Assembly: GCF_003344865.1 (NCBI RefSeq)
Contig: NZ_CP031165.1
Span: forward strand, 2,175,910 to 2,239,909
DNA length: 64,000 nt
DNA from: Euzebya pacifica
GTDB lineage: Bacteria > Actinomycetota > Nitriliruptoria > Euzebyales > Euzebyaceae
Reading direction: 5' to 3'
Part shown: positions 19,076 to 41,161 of the stretch, piece after piece
Layout of the letters: every line of letters starts with the position of its first letter
Numbering within the stretch: the stretch's first letter is position 1
Position numbers and translations under genes: made by a program
Notes under the pieces: generated by a model
Database searches by the model: none
Told to the model about the DNA's origin: nothing
The model's input: only the letters and a program-made list of their open reading frames with translations

Positions 19076-19081
19076 ACTCGT

Positions 19082-19481
19082 CCGCCGCAAGAAGGGGTTC
19101 GCCCCCCGGAAGCGGTGCAGTCCATAGTGATCGGCTCTCGTGTTCTGCGGGAGGTCTTCGATTCAGGACTTGGAGCCCGGACGGTTGTCCGGTTGCATGG
19201 TTGACCGAAAGCCTTTGGTTGCCGGCGGTTGTCGGTTCGGAGGAACTCGGGAGATTGTGTCCCCCGCTCCTTGAAAACTACACAGTGTGCCAAAAGTCAG
19301 TGCACTTTATACATGCAAGCCCCGTCTGGGGTGTTGTGCTTCGGTATGGCATCTCGACGAGTTTGTAGATTCCTTGATTCAGGATGACTGACAACGAAAA
19401 TTTGTCAGTGTTCATTCCATAACCAAGGTCATTTATCTCCACAGGATGTGTGGTTGCAGCTTTGCTGTTCGCTACAGGTCT
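19082..19481 (+). other. 16S rRNA leader, operon 1
   Basis: About 400 bases of leader without a gene. GCTCCTTGAAAACTAC (19266-19281) is a boxA-type antitermination motif as in actinobacterial rRNA leaders. ACTGACAA (19387-19394) pairs with TTGTCAGT (19402-19409) in an 8-bp hairpin. TCCACAGGA near 19438-19446 can pair with TTCTGTGGA near 21060 after the 16S gene, a candidate RNase III processing stem. The same leader precedes operon 2. Confidence 0.65.
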
Positions 19482-25748: not shown

Positions 25749-26117
25749 CCGGACACCGTTCGCAGCGGCCGGGTCGTGACAAGCGGACGGGGTTGCGCCT
25801 TCGCTACGTCGACGCAGCCTCCGGCAGGCCGTTCGTCAGCGGCCTCAGGGTCAGCCCGTTCGCCGTCCTCGATGGAGCCCGTTCGGCAGACCGGCCGCGG
25901 GGCGGCGGTGGCCGGGGGCCGTGGCCACGGTGTCGGGTGGGCCGCCCGCCTCCCCTTCCACCAGGGCCTTGAAGGGAGCGGATCTCGAGCTCGAGACGCG
26001 CTGGGCAAGTCGCCCCTCAATCCGTCCGAGCCCCACGGCCCAGGGCCTCCCCGCCTGTCGCGCGTCTGCGGCGAGTGGCCCTAGACCCCGACAGGCACGT
26101 CGGCCGGGCCAGGGCCG
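25749..26117. other. Intergenic stretch without a supported gene
   Basis: About 370 bases of GC-rich sequence. Open frames exist on both strands but their composition (Arg/Pro/Gly-rich, no recognisable motif) looks like antisense or random frames. A diverged relative of the following 73-bp repeat, with CCTGTCG...CGACAGG ends, lies at about 26053-26096. Confidence 0.5.
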
Positions 26118-26314
26118 CGTGTCGGGTGTTTGCGGCGGGTGGCCCGATATCCGACAGGCGTGGGGGAGTGGGTGGCCCGTGTGGAGGGGGCGTGTCGGGT
26201 GTTTGCGGCGGGTGGTCCGATATCCGACAGGCGTGGGGGAGTGGGTGGCCCGTGTGGAGGGGGCGTGTCGGGTGTTTGCGGCGGGTGGCCCGATACCCGA
26301 CAAGCGCTGGGAGG
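26118..26314 (+). repeat. 73-bp tandem repeat array with internal inverted ends (left array)
   Basis: Units start at 26118, 26191 and 26264 (the last is partial), each beginning CGTGTCGGG. Units 1 and 2 differ by about one base. Within each, TGTCGG and CCGACA form inverted ends of a roughly 40-base element, followed by a G-rich tail GTGGGGGAGTGGGTGG. A related array with the same 73-base period lies at 30217-30340, beyond the IS. Nothing suggests coding. Confidence 0.85.
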
Positions 26315-26464
26315 TGTGTGGACCGGGGTCGGTCTGGGGGAGGGGTTACCGGCCGTTCGAGTGGACTGTGTCGGTAGCGGCCCAATACTGACCCCCTGAC
26401 GACGGGCGAATCTTGACCCCCTTCGTCGTGGTTCACCTGCTGTGGGCGGGTGGGATCTGACCCT

Positions 26465-26486
26465 GACTCGATCGTGTCGTCGAGTC
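26465..26486 (+). promoter_or_regulatory. Stem-loop before istA
   Basis: GACTCGA (26465-26471) pairs with TCGAGTC (26480-26486). It lies directly before the istA ribosome site AGGAGGAAGG and may limit translation of transposase from outside transcripts; that role is inferred. Confidence 0.4.
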
Positions 26487-26499
26487 AGGAGGAAGGGTT

Positions 26500-26992
26500 G
26501 TGATTGACGTGGAGCAGTGGGCTGAGGTCCGCCGGTTGCATTTCGCTGAGGGGATGGCGATCAAGGCGATCGTGCGGGCGACGGGGTTGTCGCGCAACAC
26601 GGTGCGGGCGGCGATCCGCTCGGCGTCGCCACCGAAGTACGAGCGGGAGGCGGCGGGGTCGGCGGTGGATGCGTTCGAGCCGCAGATCCGCCAGTTGCTC
26701 AAGGCCACGCCGGACATGCCGGCCACGGTGATCGCCGAGCGGATCGGCTGGTCGCGGGGGATGACGGTGCTGCGCGACCGGGTGCGTGAGCTGCGTCCGG
26801 CCTACCTGCTGCCGGAGGGGTATGGCCGCACCGTCTATCGGGAGGGCGAGCTGGCCCAGTGGGACCTGTGGTTCCCCGAGGACCTGAAGGTGCCGGTCGG
26901 GTTCGGACAGACCGCGGTGCTGCCGGTGATCGTCGGGGTGCCCTGCTACTCGCGGTGGATCACCGCCCGGATGATCCCGTCCAAGGACAAAC
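26500..26992 (+). pseudogene. istA: istA, 5' part (IS21 transposase, split by ISL3 insertion)
   Basis: GTG at 26500 follows AGGAGGAAGG. The 164 residues before the break include a helix-turn-helix (GMAIKAIVRATGLSRNTVRAAI, about 19-40) and the start of the DDE integrase domain with the likely first catalytic Asp in QWDLWFPED. The frame breaks at the 8-bp duplication GGACAAAC (26985-26992). Removing the nested IS joins Lys-Asp-Lys to His-Asp-Val-Leu-Gly-Gly of the 3' part and restores a 405-residue IstA, so the insertion is the only damage I see. Confidence 0.92.
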
Positions 26993-28418
26993 GGGTCTTC
27001 CTCACGAAGCGTGGCGAGGGCCTCGCAGTCTCGCGGCAGGTTGATCCTGCCATGCGGGCTTGCCGCAGAACAGCAGGAGCCGGAGGCGGTAGTTGGCGAG
27101 GTTGCGAAAGCCGTGGCCGACGCGCTTGATGCGCTTGATGAGCGCGTTGATGGCCTCGGTCTTGCCGTTGGAGAGGCCGTCGCATCGCCAGTAGGCGAGC
27201 AGTTGATGGTGCCAGTGGCGCAGGGTGCGGGCGAGTCGTCGGATCTCGGGGATCTCCACGAACTGGCAGGCCTCGTGGAACTCCTCGAGTCGGTCTGCGG
27301 CCTCGTCGTGAGCATCGGCGCGGTACACCCTGCGGAGCAGCTCCTTGACGTGGTGGGCGTACCAGACCTCGCAGTCGGGGTCGCCCGCGACCAGCGCGGC
27401 TTCCAGCCGCGCCTTGCCCTTGTCGGTGAGCCGTTCTGTACCGACGAGCAGGGTGCGCCGGATGCCGTACAGCGGATCGCCCTTGTGGCCGCGGTGGCCC
27501 ATCTCGTCTTGTTGGACACGACGGCGGACCTCGTCGACCACGGTGTTGGCCAGCTTGATCACGTGGAAGGCGTCGACGACGGCGGTGGGCGCGTCCAGCC
27601 CTTCCAGCAACGCGTTGAGGTAGCCGCGGTGCGGATCCAGGGCGACCCGCCTGACCGCCGAGAGCCAGCCGTCACCACGCTGCTGCAGCCAGCCGGCCAC
27701 CGACGTGCCGGCACGGCCGTCGACCACGTCCAGCAGCCGGCCGGTGTCGAGGTCGACCAGCCCGGTCACGAACGTCGTCCGCCGCCTGGGCCCGGCCGCT
27801 TGGAAGCTGGTCTCATCCACCCCCAACGAGGCCACCCCAGCGGTGCGTGCCGGGTCCTCGGTCAGCGGCAGGCCGTGGTCGCGGACCGCGGCCATCGCGG
27901 TGTTCCAGCCGGTGCCGAACTCGCGGGCCAGCTGGGCAACCGGCCGGCCATGACGGCCCACTTGGACACACACGTGGGCGCGGGCCCGCTCGGTCAGCAC
28001 CGCCCGCGGCAGGGCCGCGTCATCGCGTCGCTCGGTCCACGTCCGCTTCGGGCACAACTGTTCCTCGCAACGCCACAGCCGCTTGGACCACGCCAACCGG
28101 CACGGCCGACCGCCCATCGCTACGTCACGCACCACGGTGGCGCGGCGGCCGTGCGCACGCGCGACCACCCCGCACTCCGGGCAGCCGGTGGTCACCGCCA
28201 TTGTCTCAACGGCGAGCTCGACCTCGCCGTCCACCTCCCTGGCTTCGAGCAGCACGAAGCCTTCCAAGCCGAGCACAACAGTGCCCAGCGCCGTATCGTC
28301 GGCCATCCCTGGGGTCCTTCTGATCGCAGTCTTCGAACAACCGCGATCCAAGCGGGACCCCAGGGACCTACACGTCAGGCTCGACGACCCCCGCCGCCAC
28401 GCTCAGGGAGGAAGAGCC
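26993..28418 (-). mobile_element. ISL3-family insertion sequence nested in istA
   Basis: The 1,426-bp element has imperfect inverted ends: the left reads GGGTCTTCCTC then AGCGTGGCG, and the right, read inward, GGCTCTTCCTC then AGCGTGGCG. It is flanked by the 8-bp direct repeat GGACAAAC (26985-26992 and 28419-28426), the duplication size typical of ISL3. It holds one transposase gene on the minus strand. Confidence 0.95.
27002..28306 (-). CDS. ISL3-family transposase
   Basis: ATG at 28306 gives 434 residues; an in-frame extension upstream is possible but less likely. The N-terminus has a zinc-ribbon pair (TTGCPECGVVARAHGRR and WRCEEQLCPKRTW), then a helix-turn-helix (QLAREFGTGWNTAMAAVRDHG). 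The DDE domain follows with LGVDETSF and VALDPHRGY, and the C-terminal SNGKTEAINALIKRIKRVGHGFRNLANYR, which contains the catalytic Glu, is typical for ISL3. The gene appears intact, so the element may still be active. Confidence 0.95.
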   Translation of the reverse strand: MADDTALGTVVLGLEGFVLLEAREVDGEVELAVETMAVTTGCPECGVVARAHGRRATVVRDVAMGGRPCRLAWSKRLWRCEEQLCPKRTWTERRDDAALPRAVLTERARAHVCVQVGRHGRPVAQLAREFGTGWNTAMAAVRDHGLPLTEDPARTAGVASLGVDETSFQAAGPRRRTTFVTGLVDLDTGRLLDVVDGRAGTSVAGWLQQRGDGWLSAVRRVALDPHRGYLNALLEGLDAPTAVVDAFHVIKLANTVVDEVRRRVQQDEMGHRGHKGDPLYGIRRTLLVGTERLTDKGKARLEAALVAGDPDCEVWYAHHVKELLRRVYRADAHDEAADRLEEFHEACQFVEIPEIRRLARTLRHWHHQLLAYWRCDGLSNGKTEAINALIKRIKRVGHGFRNLANYRLRLLLFCGKPAWQDQPAARLRGPRHAS

Positions 28419-28426
28419 GGACAAAC

Positions 28427-29151
28427 ACGACGTGCTCGGCGGGCACCTGTGGTGCCTCCGCGACCTGGGCCGGGTGCCCCGCAAGGGGGTGTATGACGGC
28501 GAGCCCGCGATCAGCGTCCGGCGGGGCCGCAAGCTGGTCTACACCCAGGAGTACTTGGCGTTCCGAGGCACGTTGGGGATGGGCTCGATCGTGCTGGCCA
28601 AGGGCCACCCGGAGCGCAAGGGGGTGGTGGAGCGGGCCAACGGCTACCTGGAAACGAGCTTCATGCCCGGACGCAGCTTCGGCTCGATCGACGACTTCAA
28701 CACCCAGCTGGGCCTGTGGCTTGAGGACCGGGCCAACGTCAGGGTCCACGCCGGGCTGCGCCAGCGGCCCTCCGAACGCATCGACGCCGACCTGGCCGCG
28801 ATGCTGCCGCTGCCGCCGGTGCCGCCCGATGTCGATTGGACCCACACCGTCCGGTTGGGCGCCGACCACTGGGTGCGGGTGGACACCAACGACTACTCCG
28901 TCCACCCGGGCGCGATCGGCCGCAAGGTCACCATCCGCCGCACCGCCGATCAGGTCGTGGTGACCTGTGGCCGCGACGAGGTCGCCCGCCACGACCGGGT
29001 CCTCGCCAAGCATCAGACCATCACCGACCCGGCCCACGACGCCGCCCGCAAGGCCCGCGCCCAGCTGCTCGAGCTGCCCGTCGCCGGCCCCGACACCGGT
29101 GTGGAGCAGCGGGACCTCGCCGACTACGACCGGCTGCTCGGGGTGGCCTGA
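28427..29151 (+). pseudogene. istA: istA, 3' part (IS21 transposase)
   Basis: This part resumes the frame after the second GGACAAAC copy. It carries VYDGEPAI (probable second catalytic Asp) and KGVVERANGYLE (catalytic Glu), then the C-terminal beta domain (DTNDYSVHPGAIGRKV). Its stop overlaps the istB ATG by one base. Translation from the internal GTG at 28432 could make a fragment, but without the N-terminal DNA-binding part it should not transpose. Confidence 0.92.
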
Positions 29152-29936
29152 TGGCAACCACGCCGGCGTCGGCCACCGACAGCCACCTGGCCTACCTGTG
29201 CCGGGCCATGAAGGCCCCGTCCCTCGCGGCGGCCGCCCCGCGGCTGGCCGACCGGGCCCGCGAGGAGGGCTGGACCCACGAGGCGTTCCTCGCCGCGTGC
29301 CTTGAGAAAGAAGTCGACGCCCGCGCCGCCCACGGCGGCCAGGCCCGCATCAAAGCCGCGAAGTTCCCGGCCCGCAAGACCCTGGAGGACTTCGACTTCG
29401 ACCACCAGACCTCCGTCAAGCGCGAATTGATCGGCCATCTCGGCCAGCTCGACTTCGTCGACGCCCGCGCCAACGTGGTGTTCCTCGGCCCGCCCGGCAC
29501 CGGCAAGACCCACCTCTCCATCGCGCTGGGCATCCGCGCCTGCCTGGCCGGTCACCGCGTCGCCTTCGCCACCGCCGCCCAATGGGTCGACCGGCTCGGC
29601 GCCGCCCACGCCGCCGGCCGGCTCCAGGACGAACTCCGCGCCCTCGGCCGCGTCCCCGTCGTGGTCATCGACGAGGTCGGCTACATCCCGTTTGAGGCCG
29701 AGGCCGCCAACCTGTTCTTCCAACTCATCGCCGCCAGATACGAACGCGCCAGCGTGATCATGAGCTCCAACAAGCCATTCAGCCGGTGGGGCGAGGTCTT
29801 CGGCGACCCCGTCGTGGCCGCAGCCATGATCGACCGGCTCGTCCACCACGCCGACGTCGTCCCGCTCAAGGGCGACAGCTACCGCCTCAAGGACCGCGAC
29901 CTCGGCCGCGTCCCCGCCGCCGACCCAGCACCATGA
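29151..29936 (+). CDS. istB: IS21-family helper ATPase IstB
   Basis: The 261-residue AAA+ protein resembles DnaC. It has Walker A GPPGTGKTHLS (about residues 111-121), Walker B VVVIDEVGYIPF, and sensor SNKPFSRWGEVF. The N-terminal helical domain (about 1-70) contacts DNA and IstA. IstB selects targets and activates IstA. The gene itself looks intact, but with istA broken the element cannot move without an IstA from elsewhere. Expression may depend on the upstream istA promoter and so may be reduced by the insertion. Confidence 0.95.
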   Translation: MATTPASATDSHLAYLCRAMKAPSLAAAAPRLADRAREEGWTHEAFLAACLEKEVDARAAHGGQARIKAAKFPARKTLEDFDFDHQTSVKRELIGHLGQLDFVDARANVVFLGPPGTGKTHLSIALGIRACLAGHRVAFATAAQWVDRLGAAHAAGRLQDELRALGRVPVVVIDEVGYIPFEAEAANLFFQLIAARYERASVIMSSNKPFSRWGEVFGDPVVAAAMIDRLVHHADVVPLKGDSYRLKDRDLGRVPAADPAP

Positions 29937-30216
29937 ACTCCAGAGGGGGTCAAGATTCAACCGCTGCAAGGGGGTCAGATTTCGCCCGCTGTTGACAGAC
30001 TGGCCATGTGGGAGGGGGAGGCCGGGGTGGCCGCCGGTTCGAGCTCCGGCTGACGTGCCCGGGAGGCGAGCGGCCAAGGGGGCCAACCCCGCCCCGTGCG
30101 GGGTGCTACGGCCCGGTCTCTGGACGCGCCCGCGCCAAGGGCACCGGCCGACGTAGGCCGATCGCCGTCAGCCGCCGGCGGGAGCGACCGGCGCGGCGGT
30201 GGGTCCCCATGCGTGC

Positions 30217-30340
30217 AACCGGTGTGTCGGCGAACTGCGGTCTGTGGCCGGTTGGGCGACACAGTGGGGGACCTGGCGTGCGTGGATGGAACCGGTGTGT
30301 CGGCGAACCGCGGTCTGTAGCCGGTTGGGCGACACAGTGC
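30217..30340 (+). repeat. 73-bp tandem repeat array (right array), related to the array at 26118
   Basis: Two units start at 30217 and 30290, each AACCGGTGTGTCGGCGAA; the two copies differ at about two bases over the first 50. GTGTCG and CGACAC form inverted ends. The unit shares the skeleton TGTCGG, TGCGG, GTGGCCGG, CGACA and GTGGGGGA, and the 73-base period, with the array left of the IS. Confidence 0.8.
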
Positions 30341-30360
30341 GGAGCGACGGCGGACTTCCC

Positions 30361-30452
30361 GCGGCCAGCCCCCGACGCGGCCAGCCCCCGACGCCGCCCG
30401 TCGCCCTTTCGGTACGGCACCTCGCCCGTCGCGCTGTCCGTACGGCACCTCG
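30361..30452 (+). repeat. Short tandem repeats upstream of rRNA operon 2
   Basis: GCGGCCAGCCCCCGAC is repeated twice (30361-30392). A 28-base unit beginning CCCGTCGC and ending TACGGCACCTCG is repeated at 30397 and 30425 with about three differences. No function is evident. Confidence 0.75.
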
Positions 30453-30714
30453 TCATGTCCCCGCGGCACATGCCCCGGCCCTCGAAGGGGCGCGTTCGGC
30501 ACCCGGTCGGGAGCGACGGGAGCGACGGGGTCGCCCTCCGGGCAGCTGGGCCGTCGGCCCCGAACAGGCGCGGGCGCGCCAAGTTCCTCTGGACGCGCAT
30601 GTGGGTGGTCGGGGTAGACTGTCCGAAGAAATCTGAATACGCGCTGGAGCCCCAGAACATGGGCTCCAGCAGGTCTCGGAGGACCCTGCCGGGGCGAAAA
30701 TGTGATGCCCAGGG
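30453..30714 (+). promoter_or_regulatory. Upstream region of rRNA operon 2
   Basis: No gene is seen. CGGGGTAGACT (30610-30620) matches the block upstream of operon 1 and could hold a -10 element TAGACT. GCTGGAGCCC (30643-30652) pairs perfectly with GGGCTCCAGC (30661-30670), placing CAGAACAT in the loop; the shared core CCCAGAACATG is inside a palindrome in operon 1. The stretch 30003-30216 after the IS likewise shows no gene. Confidence 0.5.
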
Positions 30715-30743: not shown

Positions 30744-30934
30744 TCTCCGTCCGCCGCAAGAAGGGGTTCGCCCCCCGGAAGCGGTGCAGTCCATAGTGAT
30801 CGGCTCTCGTGTTCTGCGGGAGGTCTTCGATTCAGGACTTGGAGCCCGGACGGTTGTCCGGTTGCATGGTTGACCGAAAGCCTTTGGTTGCCGGCGGTTG
30901 TCGGTTCGGAGGAACTCGGGAGATTGTGTCCCCC

Positions 30935-30950
30935 GCTCCTTGAAAACTAC
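30935..30950 (+). promoter_or_regulatory. boxA-like motif in the operon 2 leader
   Basis: GCTCCTTGAAAACTAC, identical to the copy in operon 1. It is a probable antitermination signal for the long untranslated transcript. Confidence 0.65.
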
Positions 30951-31150
30951 ACAGTGTGCCAAAAGTCAGTGCACTTTATACATGCAAGCCCCGTCTGGGG
31001 TGTTGTGCTTCGGTATGGCATCTCGACGAGTTTGTAGATTCCTTGATTCAGGATGACTGACAACGAAAATTTGTCAGTGTTCATTCCATAACCAAGGTCA
31101 TTTATCTCCACAGGATGTGTGGTTGCAGCTTTGCTGTTCGCTACAGGTCT

Positions 31151-40318: not shown

Positions 40319-41161
40319 GTGGAGTCTGCCTGGAGGAAGTACCTGGACATGGCGTCCGGCCTGACGGAGGTCCCTCGCCGCAAGGCCGAGGATGCCGTGA
40401 AGGCCCTGGTCGCCCGCGGAGAGGTTGCCGCGAACGCCAGTGAGCACCTCGTCGACAGCCTGCTGGGTCAGGTCGAGACCAACCGCAAGGCCGTGCAGAA
40501 CCTTGTCGGCCAGGAGGTAGAGCGGGCGCTGAAGAACGTCGACCTCGTCCGCAAGAGCGCCCTCGATGCCCTGGAGAGCCGCATCTCCCTGCTCGAACGC
40601 GTCCGCGGGAACGACGACGACAAGGACTCGTCCTCCGGTTCGACGTCGGACACGCCGGCCCCGGCCGAGAAGGCGGCCGCGAAGAAGTCGGCCAAGAAGG
40701 CCACCGCGAAGAAGGCCCCGGCGAAGAAGAGCACCGCCAAGAAGAGCACCGCCAAGAAGGCTGCGGCCAAGTCGACGGCGAAGAAGGCGACCGCCTCGAC
40801 GGGGTCTGCGACGGCGAAGAAGGCCACGGCGAAGAAGTCGACGACGGCGAAGAAGACCGCGGCCAAGACGACGGCCAAGAAAGCCACCGCCAAGAAGGCC
40901 ACCGCCAAGAAGAGCACCGCGAAGAAGAGCAACGCCGCCAAGTCGACGGCGAAGAAGGCCACCGCCAAGAAGTCGACGACGGCGAAGAAGACCGCGGCCA
41001 AGGCGACCGCCAAGAAGAGCACCGCCAAGAAGAGCACCGCCAAGAAGAGCACGGCCAAGAAGAGCACAGCCAAGAAGAGCACGGCCAAGAAGTCGACGGC
41101 CAAGAAGGCGACGCCGCCCGCGGCGTCGGGTGGCGACAGCGGCTCGTCGGCGGAGAGCTAG
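40319..41161 (+). CDS. Histone H1-like Lys/Ala-rich protein with helical N-terminus
   Basis: GTG at 40319 gives 280 residues. Residues 1 to about 100 form a coiled-coil-like helical domain (LTEVPRRKAEDAVKALVARG, SLLGQVETNRKAVQNLVGQEVERAL) resembling phasin-like or PHA-granule regulator helices. After an acidic Asp/Ser spacer, residues about 115-268 are tandem AKKST, AKKAT and AKKTA units, like the tail of histone H1 and of mycobacterial HU. Nucleic-acid binding by the tail is likely by composition; the target is unknown. It sits between a TPR gene and tlyA. Confidence 0.85.
   Translation: MESAWRKYLDMASGLTEVPRRKAEDAVKALVARGEVAANASEHLVDSLLGQVETNRKAVQNLVGQEVERALKNVDLVRKSALDALESRISLLERVRGNDDDKDSSSGSTSDTPAPAEKAAAKKSAKKATAKKAPAKKSTAKKSTAKKAAAKSTAKKATASTGSATAKKATAKKSTTAKKTAAKTTAKKATAKKATAKKSTAKKSNAAKSTAKKATAKKSTTAKKTAAKATAKKSTAKKSTAKKSTAKKSTAKKSTAKKSTAKKATPPAASGGDSGSSAES
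41012..41104 (+). repeat. 15-bp tandem repeats encoding AKKST units
   Basis: At least five near-identical 15-base units (AAGAAGAGCACCGCC and variants) in a row in the gene above. Similar but diverged units extend back to about 40,680. Confidence 0.9.

Follow-up and report, generated by a model that had tools for sequence, protein, structure and literature searches.

Dispersed extragenic palindromes with constant TGTCG/CGACA termini and changing interiors in Euzebya pacifica

The genome of Euzebya pacifica carries a dispersed family of short palindromic elements that lie at the 3′ ends of genes, keep a fixed length and period and share interior subtypes among themselves. They usually occur as head-to-tail arrays, with a period specific to the subfamily. 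At orthologous sites in a second genome of the genus, cores, usually together with the linker between them, have been replaced inside unchanged flanks. In addition, an IS30-family insertion sequence has repeatedly inserted into the element centres. Our best reading is that these repeats represent a superfamily distinct from the GTAG and CGTC classes already described, in which shared termini allow cassettes to be turned over in place. Put more specifically, they may form a REP-like, non-autonomous family whose TGTCG...CGACA termini, 37 bp end to end, guide their turnover, an account to which we give an even chance.

Anatomy, copies and genomic setting

The window, as we call the whole 64,000-nucleotide stretch analysed, holds six units in total, including arrays A and B, both with a period of 73 (Table 1). 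The units follow a common skeleton, TGTCG-N6-NGCGG-N3-GTGGCC-N7-CGACA, with small departures. This pattern occurs 11 times in the window against a shuffle mean of 3.1, and six of the 11 matches are the units of the two arrays and the diverged relative. A sequence-only reading of the window had described 73-base-period units sharing a skeleton on both sides of an insertion sequence, a diverged relative near 26053 and inverted ends; all of this was borne out, the ends proving to be near-invariant TGTCG/CGACA half-sites. The intervening IS21-family element is flanked by a GACTG target duplication (26364-26368 / 29998-30002).

Table 1. Repeat units, linkers and intervening insertion sequences in the window
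Feature	Position	Strand	Remarks
Diverged unit	26052..26096, core 26056-26093	+	38-bp core, one base above the others; weak model match C1:2201961
Unit A1	26116..26160, 37-bp core 26120-26156	+	subtype 1
A1/A2 linker	26161..26188	+	28 bp
Unit A2	26189..26233, core 26193-26229	+	subtype 1
A2/A3 linker	26234..26261	+	28 bp; same sequence as A1/A2 linker
Unit A3	26262..26306, core 26266-26302	+	subtype 1
IS21-family element	26369..29997	+	between arrays A and B; outside the repeat family; Pfam IstB_IS21 1.9e-78
ISL3-family transposase	27002-28351	-	nested in istA of the IS21-family element; Pfam DDE_Tnp_ISL3 1.1e-52
istB of the IS21-family element	29151-29936		
Unit B1	30221..30265, core 30225-30261	+	subtype 2
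B1/B2 linker	30266..30293	+	28 bp; unrelated to array A linkers
Unit B2	30294..30338, core 30298-30334	+	subtype 2

These arrays have an unusual setting, with 408 bp between the end of the closest upstream gene and the first unit, and 812 bp from the last unit to the start of a 16S rRNA gene. The suggested link to rRNA operons found no support, since most copies lie elsewhere, between protein-coding genes, and the proximity is therefore incidental. Two other features of the window were seen in passing. About 403 bases upstream of both 16S genes are identical (about 19079-19481 and 30748-31150), marking leader regions common to the two rRNA operons, and positions 40662-41113 hold a Lys/Ala-rich coding tandem repeat (15- and 45-base units, AKK-type) resembling a histone H1-like tail.

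In the own genome (G000; G002 denotes the same-genus genome and other G numbers the other genomes compared), a search allowing up to three mismatches gives 55 matches to the 37-bp skeleton TGTCG-N6-TGCGG-N3-GTGGCC-N7-CGACA and one to its reversed control. This strongly supports the earlier proposal of an intergenic element that recurs with its architecture conserved. A covariance model built from 34 copies located 95 places in 54 clusters of 1-4 units, all on the 5.80-Mb contig, so that the further copies on which that proposal hung do exist; the 572-kb second replicon has no cluster (p=0.006 for even spread). Simple slippage repeats without wider meaning are refuted by these copies. The identical linkers of array A would suit slippage, to which we nevertheless give almost no credence, because the 54 clusters are dispersed, their unrelated linkers are pinned in length and copies occur in other genera.

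Within clusters, 29 of 41 spacings are 73 and nine are 72 (38 of 41 for the two together), and array partners at these distances lie in direct orientation, head to tail. What stays constant is the pair of inverted half-sites, while interiors vary. In a 45-base frame TGTCG occupies positions 5-9 and CGACA positions 37-41, each position being at least 98% conserved among 155 aligned units; the outer bases are weaker and the interior is asymmetrical. There are two main interior subtypes, CGCGTGTCGGG... (array A) and GGTGTGTCGgCC... (array B), and adjacent units belong to the same subtype in 57 of 59 cases (expected 0.51-0.62). The idea of conserved pairing survives in part: the palindrome arms change jointly between the subtypes, whereas within one subtype the observed pairing equals the expectation from independent columns and no compensatory changes appear. 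With pairing changes confined to the step between subtypes, RNA structure is not established, and selection for an RNA hairpin is unsupported within subtypes. Own-genome TGTCG-N27-CGACA subfamilies with unrelated interiors were also observed (L072:2571 and 2621; L107:2745; L062:3505 and 3605; L103:2820), and some pairs among such minor subfamilies have a 50-bp period, not 73.

Linkers measure 27-28 bp in nearly all arrays, and their similarity between arrays is low (0.40 vs 0.34 shuffled in G000). They are slightly closer to their own flanks (0.38-0.40) than to the flanks of others (0.34-0.36), too little for an origin of pairs by simple tandem duplication, which we reject. One or two pairs of arrays within a genome share linkers above the shuffled maximum and otherwise none do, giving no sign that entire arrays were copied recently. 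Most three-unit arrays, array A included, have near-identical linkers, which implies that the third unit was added by a 73-bp tandem duplication.

Most elements are intergenic, and gaps between convergent genes are enriched among their sites, in G000 (23/46 vs 38/206 background gaps, p=3e-5) and in G002 (15/38, p=0.01). The median distance to the facing stop codon is 10-14 bp, individual gene distances carrying some error because genes were called with a simple, purpose-written codon-usage caller. A parS-like site at 5.795 Mb places the origin near 0. Relative to replication, the elements show a weak preference for one strand (34/54, p=0.08), and polarity between origin and terminus was rejected on this ground and because the one large cluster-free gap near the expected terminus, 653 kb (G000 C1:2755746-3408739), has p of about 0.1.

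Turnover at orthologous sites and the wider family

Among 60 relatives, the same interiors are present in number only in G002, which has 66 units with spacings of 73 (ten), 72 (nine) and 74 (one). Flanking proteins of the two genomes are a median 93% identical. With orthology defined by gene neighbours called with a simple script, an orthologous neighbour gene adjoins an element in G002 for 36 of 50 clusters, and relative orientation agrees in all 63 of 63 comparisons. Core identity is 69% between orthologous arrays vs 88-93% within an array. Of eight pairs of same-subtype orthologous arrays tested, five have homologous linkers (p 0.001-0.024); in pairs with a subtype switch, linker homology is found in L072/L127 only (p 0.013). 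Flank alignment in switched pairs is good at L049 and L052, and at L050 it is good on one side. When the interior family switches, then, the flanks stay while both cores are replaced, and with them almost always the linker; judged from this loss of linker homology beside retained flanks, the array acts largely as a block exchanged inside a fixed setting.

A thiolase site illustrates this turnover: its interior is another one in each of G000, G002 and G001, with 15, 14 and 16 nt, respectively, between stop codon and TGTCG. Such common ends around three interiors led to a search by termini alone. Matches to GTGTCG-N27-CGACA vs its reversed control number 109/0 in G000, 65/1 in G002, 80/2 in G015, 23/0 in G022, 20/0 in G017, 16/0 in G001, 12/1 in G008 and 12/0 in G012, and most other genomes have no such excess, G003, G013 and G018 counting as negative; genomes other than our own were scanned in part. 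TGTCG-N27-CGACA is thus over-represented in further genera of the order as well, with interiors that differ between genera. An exact-pattern scan returned four scattered single matches in other genomes and none in viral contigs.

The period of exact pairs differs as well: G008 and G012 have nine such pairs, each with a period of 62 bp, and G001 has periods of 60 and 73. Pairing within the interiors is above permutation in G001 (z 4.5), G008 (2.8) and, marginally, G022 (2.0) but not in G012 or G017, so that this part of the pairing claim stands for some genomes and not for others. In G012 the interiors are near-random, yet the ends and the 62-bp period are kept. The abundant repeat of G015 (L229-L240) has CGACAC-TG-TGTCG junctions at its ends, an GCATAGCGCAGGAAT interior and additional TGTCG/CGACA beyond the ends; these copies may be a distinct composite repeat.

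IS30-family insertions into the elements

The hunt for repeated genes around the elements returned mainly IS30 copies and generic families. The IS30-type transposase (317 aa, rve domain plus HTH; family assigned from motifs and Pfam) has nine near-full copies in the own genome (L100-L109). After removal of the short target duplication, an exact 37-bp TGTCG-N27-CGACA element surrounds seven of the eight copies with both ends readable, for which chance is about 1e-21; the remaining copy misses a unit by a few bases. The insertion point is about base 13-15 of the element, and two of the seven elements hit have unrelated interiors. IS30 is known to prefer hot spots described as nearly palindromic (PMC9333248), and in its near-palindromic character the target seen here is alike. 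It differs in being a genome-wide repeat family, hit at about the same base whatever its interior.

Origin of the family and its relation to known repeats

Known REPs offer the closest comparison. In GTAG-superfamily REPs, interiors differ between species and the end motif is kept, and head-to-tail dimers are reported absent or under-represented (PMC3733652). One published account has some insertion sequences, ISPpu9 for example, inserting in REPs (PMC8450116). Our elements resemble them in being short extragenic palindromes, present in tens to hundreds of copies and lying close to the 3′ ends of genes and where genes converge. In contrast to GTAG REPs, they have symmetrical TGTCG/CGACA ends with no unpaired GTAG tag in the 155 aligned units, their genome lacks a RAYT gene and their units stand head to tail at a fixed period; neighbouring units are direct, unlike the alternating, inverted units of BIMEs and REPINs. 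CGTC-tagged REPs are palindromic and dispersed without a dedicated transposase, with negligible head-to-tail dimers, and actinobacteria do not appear in the main text of the paper on that superfamily (PMC3733652). The present elements are also palindromic and dispersed, but lack an unpaired CGTC at one end and form head-to-tail arrays. As the family carries the unpaired tag of neither superfamily, we file it as REP-like, not as REP. CRISPR arrays combine a repeat with unrelated linkers of fixed length, identical repeats alternating with several different spacers beside cas genes. Linkers of fixed length occur here too (37 + 36 = 73 bp); on the other hand, the present family has 54 dispersed loci of 1-4 units, symmetrical ends, many interiors and near-identical linkers in most three-unit arrays. 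Integron attC sites are marked by RYYYAAC / GTTRRRY boxes within cassette arrays; the ends of the present elements read TGTCG/CGACA. We found no description of such repeats for this group in the literature.

Interiors shared within a genome require copying between sites, and the exchange of interiors with immobile flanks suggests that common termini guide the replacement. Under the REP-like reading, a trans-acting recombinase or transposase, or a recombination process, would recognise the common termini, copy elements between sites and swap interior families in place. Local conversion or slippage might keep the units of an array alike, and the IS30 transposase might target the same symmetrical architecture. 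The position just after a stop codon could be tolerated or weakly useful, as a 3′-end hairpin or an insulator between convergent genes. Several results count against this reading: no acting enzyme was identified, no clean empty-versus-filled site was found, and arrays of one genome hardly ever have linkers in common. RAYT (Y1_Tnp), the usual mobiliser of REPs, is absent from G000, which rejects it for this role here; of 13 further genomes tested, 12 lack it too, and G012 gave one short hit, an open frame of 77 aa.

The near-invariance of the half-sites in the 155 units also fits selection on a protein-binding site. In this rather unlikely alternative, the repeats are double-stranded DNA sites with a host function: inverted TGTCG half-sites, spaced by some three helical turns and with at least two units of an array on one helix face, would be recognised by a protein that serves chromosome organisation or the insulation of convergent genes. 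The geometry suits it (half-site centres 32 bp apart and a period of 73, about 3 and 7 turns), as do the absence of base-pair covariation within subtypes, the persistence of ends and period around the near-random interiors of G012 and the lack of clusters on the second replicon. However, one interior subtype spread over dozens of sites, and its replacement in blocks, require copying; interior palindromes rise above permutation in G001 and in G008, the other periods (50, 60 and 62 bp) do not all amount to whole turns, and the replication strand bias is weak. Less probable still are RNA hairpins in 3′ untranslated regions that stabilise or terminate mRNA, the hairpin families being interchangeable. 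The enrichment between convergent genes, so close to the facing stop codon, the folding of short cores better than shuffles and retention at one site in three species would agree with such a role. It is at odds with the absence of compensatory changes within subtypes, the weak interior pairing of G012 and G017 and the ordinary stability of the whole 73-nt unit (z -1.3). Moreover, no Rfam covariance model matches 25900-30700 at E up to 1, and a T-tract follows 0 of 155 units on either strand; with no terminator-like site at the units either, intrinsic terminators were rejected. The lack of a RAYT in the own genome, of T-tracts and of an Rfam family leads us to favour the REP-like, terminus-guided family over binding sites and RNA hairpins, although the three can coexist. 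A bolder version, improbable in our estimation, has this actinobacterial order possess a dedicated candidate recombination system, in which two-unit arrays with TGTCG-N27-CGACA termini would be swapped whole, with new fixed-length linkers, at conserved post-stop sites, and an IS30-family element would read the same code.

On the REP-like reading, extragenic palindromes would gain another class, found in actinobacteria lacking the known REP transposase and marked by symmetrical termini that stay constant, interiors that can replace one another and head-to-tail units at a fixed period. The insertion preference of the IS30-family element points to architecture, instead of sequence, as a possible target of an insertion sequence. 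Finally, the switching of whole arrays in place between close species amounts to a natural experiment on how repeats spread and are maintained.
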